64,000 nucleotides of DNA from Edaphobacter lichenicola (GTDB lineage Bacteria; Acidobacteriota; Terriglobia; Terriglobales; Acidobacteriaceae): assembly GCF_025264645.1 (NCBI RefSeq), contig NZ_CP073696.1, positions 186,001 through 250,000 on the forward strand, given 5' to 3'. This document shows positions 554-45,419 of the stretch, piece by piece; positions within the stretch are counted from its first letter, which is position 1; the number at the start of each line of letters is the position of its first letter. Made by a program: the position numbers and the translations under genes. The notes under the pieces are model-generated. The model had not been told where the DNA came from, ran no database searches, and saw nothing but the letters and a program-made list of their open reading frames with translations.

Positions 554-666
554 CACGCGAATCTGCTGGACTGGAGCGGGTTTTCGTTGATTTGGGGCTT
601 GACAGGATTTTCGTCTTGGGGCGGGAGGCCCTTCGGCGGCTCGCGGTTCGCGTGTGACGCGAGTAA

Positions 667-699
667 CCCACCCTTTGCGATGAGACTGCAAAGAATGGG
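667..699. repeat. REP-like palindromic element, copy 1
   Basis: Arms CCCACCCTTTGC and GCAAAGAATGGG surround the 9-base loop GATGAGACT. The two mismatches become G-U pairs when read from the minus strand. Copy 3 (26843-26875) has nearly the same arms and loop, and copy 2 (19636-19666) sits inside the cysteine desulfurase gene. Confidence 0.7.
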
Positions 700-791
700 C
701 GGTCCGACCGGTGGATGGGCACTCGACCGGTGCGTTGGCCACCGATCTTTGTGCGGTGGCCACGACCTGGGAGTGGATATATGGTATCCGG

Positions 792-19203: not shown

Positions 19204-20511
19204 CTATGCGGGAGTGAGGGTCGTGGACTTGTTCCAGGTGGGGCTGAGGTCGCGGAGGCGGGCAACTGCGGCGGGGATGAGGGTGAGGGCTTCGTCGATC
19301 TCTTCGGCGGTGGTGAGGCGGGAGAGGGAGAAGCGGATGCTGGCGCGTGCGCGTGTGGGCGAAAGGCCCATGGCGGTGAGGACGTGGGAGGGTTCGGTGG
19401 CGCCGGACTGGCAGGCGGAGCCTCCGCTGACCGAGAGACCTTTGAGGTCGAGGGCGATGACGAGTGCTTCAGCTTCTACGTGGTCGAAGTAGAGGTTGGT
19501 GGTGTTCGAGACGCGAGGAGCGCCATCGCCGTTGATGCCGCACTCTTCAACTTGAGCGAGGATTCCTTGTTCGAGGCGGTCGCGGAGAGCGGTGAGTTCT
19601 GCCGGGGTGGAGTGGGTCGCGTTGTCGCGCGATAACCCACCCTTCGCAGAAGGCGCGAAGGATGGGCCACCCGGATTTATCGTGTCGGTTGAATTTTTGG
19701 TAGGGCTGTCTTCGGTGAGCCAGGTGTTGGCTAGTTCGGCGGCTTTGCCGAGGGCGACGATGCCGGCTACGTTTTCGGTGCCGGCGCGGCGTTGGCGCTC
19801 GTGTGAGCCGCCGTGGAGCATAGGCGTCAGGCGAACGTTGCGGCGGACGAAGAGGGCGCCGATTCCCTTAGGGGCGTAGATCTTGTGTCCGGAGATGGTG
19901 AGGAGATCGACGTCCTTGAGCGGGCCTTTGGGGCTGAGGTCGAGGGGGAGACGGCCTACGGCTTGAACGGCGTCTGTGTGGAAGAGAGCACCGGCAGCGT
20001 GAGCGATGGCGGCCAGCGTTTCGATGGGCTGGATGACGCCGGTCTCGTTGTTGGCGAACATGACGCTGACTAACTTCGTGTTGGGGCGGATTGCGGCGAG
20101 GAGCGCTGCTGGTTCGACGACTCCCTGCGGGGTGCTAGGGAGAAAGGTGACTTCGACGTTGTTCTTCGCCAGGGACTCGGCGGCGCGAAGGATGGCGTCG
20201 TGCTCGATGCTGGTGGTGATGAGGTGGGCGGGCTCGTTTTTTAAGGTATGGAGCGTGCCGCTGAGTGTGCCGAAGAGCGCGAGGTTGTCGCTCTCGGTGC
20301 CGCCGGAGGTGAAGACGATCTCGGAGGTGCGGCAGTGAAGGAGACGGGCGATGGTGTCGCGGGCGTGATCGACTGCGGCGCGGGCGAACTGTCCTTGTTG
20401 ATGGATGGAGCTGGCGTTGCCGTAGTGCTCCAGGAAGAACGGGCGCATCGCTTCGAAGACCTCGGGGAGCAGAGGGGTGGTCGCGTTCGCGTCCATGTAG
20501 ATTCGGCGCAT
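19204..20511 (-). CDS. cysteine desulfurase (IscS/NifS family) carrying an in-frame palindromic repeat
   Basis: PLP enzyme of 435 residues that takes sulfur from cysteine for Fe-S clusters and tRNA thiolation. Seen: MDANATTPLLPEV, TSGGTESDNLA, the PLP-binding Lys210 in SGHKIYAPKG, GGSHERQRRAGTEN, and the active Cys367 in GGSACQSGATEP. Residues ~268-303, between the AGTEN helix and the small domain, are not a family feature; they include the translation of a REP-like palindrome (GGPSFAPSAKGGLSRDN). The insertion keeps frame and should lie in a surface loop, so activity is probably retained. No isc/suf partner is adjacent. A truncated second copy of the 5' end lies at 22421-22612. Confidence 0.95.
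   Translation of the reverse strand: MRRIYMDANATTPLLPEVFEAMRPFFLEHYGNASSIHQQGQFARAAVDHARDTIARLLHCRTSEIVFTSGGTESDNLALFGTLSGTLHTLKNEPAHLITTSIEHDAILRAAESLAKNNVEVTFLPSTPQGVVEPAALLAAIRPNTKLVSVMFANNETGVIQPIETLAAIAHAAGALFHTDAVQAVGRLPLDLSPKGPLKDVDLLTISGHKIYAPKGIGALFVRRNVRLTPMLHGGSHERQRRAGTENVAGIVALGKAAELANTWLTEDSPTKNSTDTINPGGPSFAPSAKGGLSRDNATHSTPAELTALRDRLEQGILAQVEECGINGDGAPRVSNTTNLYFDHVEAEALVIALDLKGLSVSGGSACQSGATEPSHVLTAMGLSPTRARASIRFSLSRLTTAEEIDEALTLIPAAVARLRDLSPTWNKSTTLTPA
19636..19666. repeat. REP-like palindromic element, copy 2, inside a coding sequence
   Basis: Arms CCCACCCTTCGC and GCGAAGGATGGG surround loop AGAAGGC; the single mismatch is a G-U pair on the minus strand. It is read in frame within the cysteine desulfurase gene (around residues 282-293). 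Flanking bases GTAAC/ATAACCCACC and GGGCC.CCCGG also recall copy 1. Confidence 0.7.
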
Positions 20512-22420: not shown

Positions 22421-22612
22421 TTACAGTAAACGGTTCCGTTCGGAAGACGATGGTGTGTCGCGGGTCTGGTCGACTACGGCTCGGGCGAACTGTCCTTGCT
22501 TACGGATGGAGCTGGCGTTGCCGTAGTGCTCGAGAAAGAAGGGACGCATGGCCTCGAAGACCTCCGGGAGAAGAGGCGTGGTGGCGTTGGCGTCCATATA
22601 GATTCTGCGCAT
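22421..22612 (-). pseudogene. truncated cysteine desulfurase copy (5' end only)
   Basis: The first ~53 codons match the gene at 19204-20511 (about 48 of 53 residues identical, starting MRRIYMDANATTPLLPEVFE), then the match stops abruptly after RDT and a stop follows at residue 63. The match extends into the upstream sequence (ATTTTACT...CTGTGTGG...CGGCGTG). At DNA level the copies differ at roughly one base in seven, mostly at silent third positions. It lacks PLP lysine and active cysteine, so it cannot be functional. It flanks a ~1.9-kb segment with three accessory genes. Confidence 0.85.
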
Positions 22613-22854
22613 GGTTCCATTTTACTTGCTGTGTGGTATCGGCGTGAACAGAGTGGTGAGCCATCGGCCCCAGTAACAGCGACTCATTGGATTGGAGGGG
22701 TTCAAGCCGCTGATCGTCTTTCCGAAGGGCGAAGAGAAACCTTGAGGGGTGACGGCTCTCCGCGACAAACCGGAATTATGAAACTACACTTCCTAGAATC
22801 CTCTGAAGCCTGTAGTGTGGTTTAGTTGGTAATTCAGGTAAGGGATGCAAAAGA

Positions 22855-26842: not shown

Positions 26843-26875
26843 CCCATTCTTTGCGGTGAGACTGCAAAGGATGGG
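26843..26875. repeat. REP-like palindromic element, copy 3
   Basis: Arms CCCATTCTTTGC and GCAAAGGATGGG surround loop GGTGAGACT, one base different from the loop of copy 1. The single arm mismatch is a G-U pair on the plus strand. It lies between citrate synthase and the SnoaL-like gene, 8 bases from the citrate synthase stop. Confidence 0.7.
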
Positions 26876-45012: not shown

Positions 45013-45041
45013 AGTATAGCGGATTGGGCATAACTCATACG
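45013..45041 (-). promoter_or_regulatory. putative promoter in repeat copy B, reading towards ribD
   Basis: Minus-strand TATACT (45018-45013) below the conserved GCGTATGAGTT block, as in copy A. No consensus -35 is seen. Confidence 0.35.
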
Positions 45042-45419
45042 CCACGCGAATCTCCTTGTCTGGCGCGGGTTTTCGTGTGATCGGGGCTTGACAGGATTTT
45101 CAGCGTATCTGCAACGTGGAAGGTCAACCACTATCAACGATGACTCGCCAAGCTGCGGCTGAGATTAATAGCCATTTATGCGGATTTGGCGCGGTTTGTG
45201 TGAGCCAGTCTCATCCTGTTTGATCTACAATCCTCGAACTTGAGAAAAGCGGCTTGCTACGTAGTGGAAGATGGACGCTGTCATGCGGAGGCAATGTGCA
45301 TGACGGCTTCGACCGCTCGTGGCAATCGTTATGCGGAATTTTTGTGAGGGCTCCTTTGTGCTCTCTTCTTATTGGCGAAGAAGGACCAACGTTTGTGCGA
45401 AGAAATGGGATATCGGGCT

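Follow-up and report, generated by a model that had tools for sequence, protein, structure and literature searches.

The window (the whole stretch of 64,000 nucleotides that was analysed, G000:C1:186001-250000, from the 5.66 Mb, one-contig genome of Edaphobacter lichenicola, hereafter the host genome or G000) contains the gene of a cysteine desulfurase in whose reading frame lies what is, judging from its sequence, a complete REP element of a dispersed family. The gene, the parts of the element and the two other copies found in the window are as follows, with the evidence in brackets.

19204..20511, minus strand: cysteine desulfurase of the NifS/IscS type, 435 aa, with the in-frame element (ORF open throughout; profiles, alignment, predicted structure)
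19614..19674, minus strand: complete REP element, head + hairpin 1 + linker + hairpin 2 (covariance model, 60.7 bits)
19667..19674, minus strand: head CCGGGTGG of the in-gene element (sequence, alignment of copies)
19636..19666, minus strand: hairpin 1, type A, 31 nt, CCCATCCTTCGC / GCGAAGGGTGGG (sequence, genome pattern search, fold)
19617..19632, minus strand: hairpin 2, TCGCG / CGCGA (sequence and likeness to other copies)
645..707, minus strand: complete intergenic REP element of the same family as the in-gene copy (covariance model, 58.0 bits)
26843..26875, minus strand: intergenic copy of which hairpin 1 alone is recognised (covariance model, 27.9 bits, model positions 9-41)

Aligned copies from this and related genomes consist of a head that ends in GGGTG(G/C), hairpin 1 (CCCA...TGGG), a linker and hairpin 2, usually followed by ACC. 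The stems fall into subtypes A (CCTTYGC), B (ATCTC and variants) and C (TCATGC). The in-gene element (window 19614-19674, minus strand) starts with the head GGGTGGCCCA, lies on the sense strand and is read as the codons CCG GGT GGC CCA. An earlier note on this DNA had described a REP-like palindrome in frame within a cysteine desulfurase gene, and this is confirmed, the 435-aa ORF being unbroken across the element. The palindrome was correctly seen, but it is part of a larger unit, made of head, hairpin 1, short linker and hairpin 2. The two other copies that the note placed at 667-699 and 26843-26875 are confirmed, with 88% likeness to each other. The in-gene stem, given in the note as CTTTGC/GCAAAG, actually reads CTTCGC/GCGAAG, so that the pattern proposed there matches the two intergenic copies only. 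The fold of the in-gene copy as single-stranded DNA is better than that of every one of 200 shuffles (z -4.24); the centroid structure has hairpin 1, and the lowest-energy form pairs the region of hairpin 2 otherwise. Rfam gives no match at the gathering threshold in the window, nor at E<=1 in eight loci.

The covariance model recognises three sites in the window (three more rows are the same sites read on the opposite strand) and at least 62 places at E<=0.1 in the host genome; such counts are lower bounds, here and similarly in the other genomes, because 150 of the 2966 first-look candidates were scored. A genome-wide palindrome scan with Y/R allowed in the stem finds 14 places, against 0 for a reversed control. 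In an alignment of 28 copies, hand-chosen from 87 candidates, 91.4% of the cells are paired (shuffled mean 81.5), 52 cells are altered on both sides (14.6 in shuffles) and the covariation score is 0.290 (0.113 in shuffles); none of the 500 shuffles reaches any of these values. Two measures are weak (pairs changed on both sides, 20/500; further pair types, 251/500), and all of them drop when the pairing partners are slid. The absence of control matches and the covariation of the hairpin over 28 copies exclude a chance palindrome; the notion of a chance palindrome or an assembly artefact, which must also face similar inserts at the desulfurase site in separately named assemblies, has a negligible probability.

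The Y1 transposase domain (PF01797) is found in 49 of the 60 genomes of the genus. The host genome has a single weak match, a 133-aa ORF near elements, and no intact RAYT was found in it; its copies may therefore be immobile now. The 31 Y1_Tnp loci that were scanned (that of the host and 30 others from among the best matches; element matches at E<=0.001) include 14 with elements, and the transposase is flanked by elements on both sides at L090, L091, L092, L096, L098, L099, L100, L102 and L107. The other 17 loci have no model match; some are plain IS200 (L078), and palindromes are seen by eye at L088. All eight intact RAYT proteins tested from loci with elements pass the NF047646 model ("REP-associated tyrosine transposase") with 100-114 bits for a cut-off of 80, compared to 54 bits for the host remnant and 26 bits for the IS200 transposase of L078. 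Different RAYT sequences adjoin elements of types A, B and C. Since such elements bracket RAYT genes in Edaphobacter/Granulicella relatives, the sequence comparisons identify the element as a REP of the RAYT kind. Other traits agree with this class: it is a dispersed, many-copy palindrome, mostly intergenic (15 of 145 copies lie in convincing genes, in four genomes), and it flanks RAYT genes in the relatives, the host having a remnant near elements only. The conserved head is present and reads GGGTG(G/C) before CCCA, not GTAG, which the available excerpt of PMC8266576 presents as the commonest REP head motif, not the sole one. Two inverted REPs forming a unit, as in REPINs or BIMEs, are not what is seen here: the unit has two different hairpins. 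In the host genome, neighbouring elements within a few kb share the same strand; elements in opposite orientations occur at a few RAYT loci (e.g., L090, L092, L096, L107). Like the Rickettsia palindromic elements to which the earlier note compared it, the element is inserted in frame into unrelated protein genes; the likeness lies in behaviour, the machinery being that of REP and RAYT. The mobility that the note proposed has indirect support, from the bracketed RAYT genes of relatives and from one site at which sister species have elements of different types.

Strand and frame were studied in 145 elements from four genomes (G000, G014, G023 and G002), leaving out opposite-strand rows at 439484 (host, 1/62) and 1337608 (G023, 1/24). 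The head strand is the C-rich strand, as defined by local GC skew, for 143 of the 145 elements (60/61, 44/44, 23/23 and 16/17 by genome), and for 141 when the element and 150 bp on each side are excluded. Taking single flanks, both agree in 122 cases, one in 21 and neither in 2 (23/145 disagree on at least one side); clustered elements have flanks in common. In the window the skew is regional and independent of gene direction: 40 of 41 long ORFs (unchecked as genes) follow it, and one is near parity. In the host, |skew|>=0.15 is found at 46 of 61 elements, compared to 4 of 20 sampled places. The skew is only a proxy for the direction of replication; it has several sign changes over the length of the genome, and many of the sampled places show little of it. 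Members of the IS200/IS605 family have a fixed polarity to the replication strand and insert into single-stranded DNA, and RAYTs are likened to them, according to the available portion of PMC6006769. By this analogy, a simple account of the skew-linked orientation would be insertion into the single-stranded DNA of one replication strand.

Besides the host desulfurase, elements lie in the following genes of these four genomes.

Host: three elements in one ORF of a PTPS-related membrane protein (PF10131, 20.5 bits, below the cut-off of 26.4)
Host: one element in a PMT-like ORF
Host: one element, antisense, in AspS
G023: elements in TrmFO and in a penicillin amidase
G014: elements in PheT, ArgS, a sodium:solute symporter, a PMT-like protein and, twice, the desulfurase
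G002: element in the desulfurase

A coding test (a codon-usage score trained on 31 window ORFs) is passed by 20 of the 145 elements, 17 of which are sense and in phase 0 (codons CCG GGT GCC CCA), so that the preferred frame reads "..GAP..". The three others are L350 (sense, other phase), L356 (sense, third phase, doubtful) and the antisense copy of AspS. When five short or weakly coding ORFs (L204, L302, L310, L356, L361) are set aside, 15 elements are left: 13 in phase 0, one in the other sense phase, none in the third and one antisense. The share of phase 0 (17/20 versus 0.185 expected, p=2e-10; 13/14 versus 0.38 among sense elements only, p=3e-5) is high, with p-values that are overstated because not every copy is independent of the others (the desulfurase is counted four times, the membrane protein three). 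Stop codons do not force the preferred frame, since any one of the six frames is free of stops in 71 to 98 of the other 125 copies. A peptide resembling xGAPYLDSEMWAS recurs, in one frame, in unrelated enzymes; outside the four genomes, L277 is in another frame.

The same loops carry elements in several species. In AspS, antisense copies resembling types A, B and C occupy one loop in G000, G016 and G009; what may be a remnant in G018 is not significant (13.6 bits, E 0.58). Loop 1 of the membrane protein has differing REP stems in G000, G019, G007, G015 and G010, and loop 3 in G010 and G012; in the two genomes nearest by identity, G014 and G002, loop 1 has no element. The inserts of TrmFO, ArgS and PheT coincide with breaks or thinning in alignments to solved relatives; the gap in the AspS alignment spans a wide stretch (329-479), so the place of that insert is not pinned. 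Several of the genes hit act on tRNA (AspS, ArgS, PheT, TrmFO), which may be a detection bias; the desulfurase perhaps does so indirectly, by way of tRNA thiolation. The loops of PTPS-related proteins, and perhaps PheT, also carry a second repeat family, in-frame SSRPKRSEVERPPHFA or similar (L269, L270, L276, L337). In the window, 524-612 and 45013-45101 form a repeat pair (85% alike over 89 nt) beside repeated GCAAATATGTC motifs.

The top NCBIfam model for the desulfurase is NifS (478 bits in two stretches, below the equivalog cut-off of 530.75), and the Pfam family is Aminotran_5. The predicted structure (mean pLDDT 86.4, pTM 0.87) is matched by the structures of Nfs1 and IscS, with a TM score of about 0.9 over the target. 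The insert (residues 269-294) has a pLDDT below 50 and lies between the helices 248-266 and 303-320; residues 233-241 are also low. The alignment with E. coli IscS is interrupted between query positions 263 and 305, exactly at the insert. The loop has 50 residues compared to 17 in most relatives, that is, 33 more, in line with the approximately 30 extra residues announced in the earlier note, whose proposal of a tolerated loop also agrees with the low pLDDT between two helices and the break in the IscS alignment. The insert would be a disordered extra loop, as the model suggests, and is probably tolerated rather than useful. About 2.1 kb upstream of the gene, 22455-22626 is an 86% second copy of approximately the first 50 desulfurase codons and a few upstream bases, and is followed by other sequence.

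The closest relatives found with the desulfurase belong to the Acidobacteriaceae genera Edaphobacter and Granulicella. Their loops were compared in 101 rows (102 loci, one of which has no readable gene; duplicates between two sources were kept). Eleven distinct genes have a loop of 38 to 106 residues and the rest one of 16 to 28; the palindrome is still recognisable in eight of the 11 long-loop genes. It is of type A only in the host window, of type A then B in L109 and L111, and of type B in L108, L110, L114, L018 and L173. The inserts of L121 and L138 appear decayed by eye, and L134 has a long loop without a clear type. When the loop is left out of the tree building, seven of the eight carriers, host included, form one clade (support 97/95); the eighth, L173, lies nearby and pairs with L120, which has no insert. 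L112 and L120 have no insert and yet branch inside the group of ten that contains all eight carriers. The loop changes at least twice on the tree if unclear loops are not counted, and eight times if every longer loop is an insertion. The elements of A-type, B-type or both are in frame in seven species of the clade and one further lineage. The earlier note had held orthologues with the same insertion to speak against its reading, and orthologues do have an insertion at this site: in these alignments it has the look of an old event shared by the clade, with a palindrome type that varies by species, and not of a fresh one in the host. In G014 the desulfurase has two heads that start 75 nt apart, so that recombination between them would delete 25 codons in frame.

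A concerted change of both arms giving a B2 stem private to the desulfurase site was considered and dropped, since a pattern search finds this stem at nine places in three of seven genomes. Seven of the nine are in ORFs of at least 400 aa, in phase 0, two of them in the same ORF (L399). Those two lie near both ends of this glycoside hydrolase ORF (GH16), whose true start and stop are uncertain. L395 and L397 have B2-type elements in phase 0 in the ORF of an ABC ATPase, which we take to be of the ABC-F kind, in two species.

As a whole, we consider it very probable that a REP of the RAYT type was gained in frame, ancestrally, in the desulfurase loop, and that types A and B were reshuffled later. 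The element, which is non-autonomous, hairpin-forming and about 61 bp long, would be moved by RAYTs via single-stranded DNA at the replication fork; in the ancestor of an Edaphobacter clade, elements of this kind would have entered the desulfurase loop that joins two helices. The copy may have been retained because it kept the frame and because this frame codes small, polar, turn-forming residues (NPGGPSFAP..., NPGAPYIDS...), giving a disordered loop. Recombination or slippage probably took place later between the heads (CCGGGTGCCCCA), which are direct repeats sharing one codon phase; this would explain that sister species now have A, B or A+B with the frame intact. Selection would have filtered both frames and sites. 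A possible but rather doubtful alternative is that the palindromes of this site come from independent insertions into a permissive loop rather than from one A+B array. Repeated insertion is suggested by the different stems of the PTPS-related loop among five genomes, with none in G014 and G002, by the A-, B- and C-like copies in the AspS loop, by L112 and L120 having no desulfurase insert and by the B2 stem being a subtype that also occurs at other places in G018 and G025; on the other side, the three in-gene A copies of the desulfurase site share the 31-nt form and the sequence that follows B is alike in several species, both of which fit one origin.

What is retained in the gene might also be the hairpin as a nucleic acid, for mRNA stability, ribosome pausing or protein binding, the peptide being a by-product. 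The arms remain complementary in well-kept in-gene copies and the single strand folds strongly (z -4.24), yet L121 and L138 look decayed by eye with the loop still there, and a frame preference is a protein-level signal, which makes this explanation unlikely. Slightly less likely again is a useful, selected segment such as a partner-binding or regulatory linker: the single frame and the similar peptides of unrelated enzymes would be expected of it, but not the low predicted order, the very variable length of the loop (38 to 106 residues in the 11 long-loop genes), the apparent decay in relatives or the fact that most relatives have no insert. Returning to the ancestral gain followed by reshuffling, its extension beyond the desulfurase is plausible though tentative: acidobacterial REPs moved by RAYTs would enter on one replication strand, and those falling into genes in one frame of the six would add a benign "GAP" peptide. 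Core enzymes (AspS, ArgS, PheT, TrmFO, the cysteine desulfurase and the ABC-F-like ATPase) would accept it repeatedly in the same loops, and head-to-head recombination would exchange and lengthen the loop in frame.

If so, new protein loops would arise recurrently from these REPs. The elements form a comparative system in which a transposase-linked palindrome adds protein segments, with many species, sites that have the insert and others that lack it, apparent decay and a measurable frame filter; the family also offers a genomic test of a fixed polarity of RAYT elements relative to the replication strand. Among the titles and abstract openings listed from the open-licence PMC literature, which for some searches were part of the hits, no paper on this family appeared, whether for such elements in Acidobacteria, Edaphobacter or Granulicella, for REP orientation and the lagging strand or for in-frame palindromes.

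The elements resemble the RAYT-associated REPs or REPtrons described in the available parts of Bertels & Rainey 2011 (PMC3116915), PMC3733652 and PMC8266576: a short, dispersed palindrome with an unpaired conserved 5' motif, which brackets RAYT genes and has several subtypes, each with different RAYTs. Unlike the usual REPs of these excerpts, the Edaphobacter element has a GGTG head instead of GTAG, a second, different hairpin in the same orientation, and copies oriented by local GC skew (143/145). Di Nocera 2013 (PMC3733652) reports intragenic GTAG/CGTC REPs, some of them in tRNA synthetases and repair genes, and one case, Xanthomonas recB, in which different REPs occupy nearly the same position; transposases of this kind from acidobacteria, with inverted repeats on their flanks, are also grouped there. 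Compared to those intragenic REPs, one frame is dominant here, insertions recur at several loops across many species and insert-free relatives were compared. Rickettsia palindromic elements, as extracts of PMC10969869 and PMC3733652 describe them, are likewise in-frame palindromes of unrelated protein genes with a recurring peptide; they measure about 150 bp, whereas the Edaphobacter element measures about 61 bp and is RAYT-associated, a comparison made by description. The enterobacterial RU elements (Delihas 2007, PMC2759123, in part) are also small mobile repeats fused in frame to genes, but they are MITE-like, 103-168 bp long and from another phylum. Intragenic REPs were thus already known; the preferred frame, the repeated insertion in the same loops and the strand polarity are new here.
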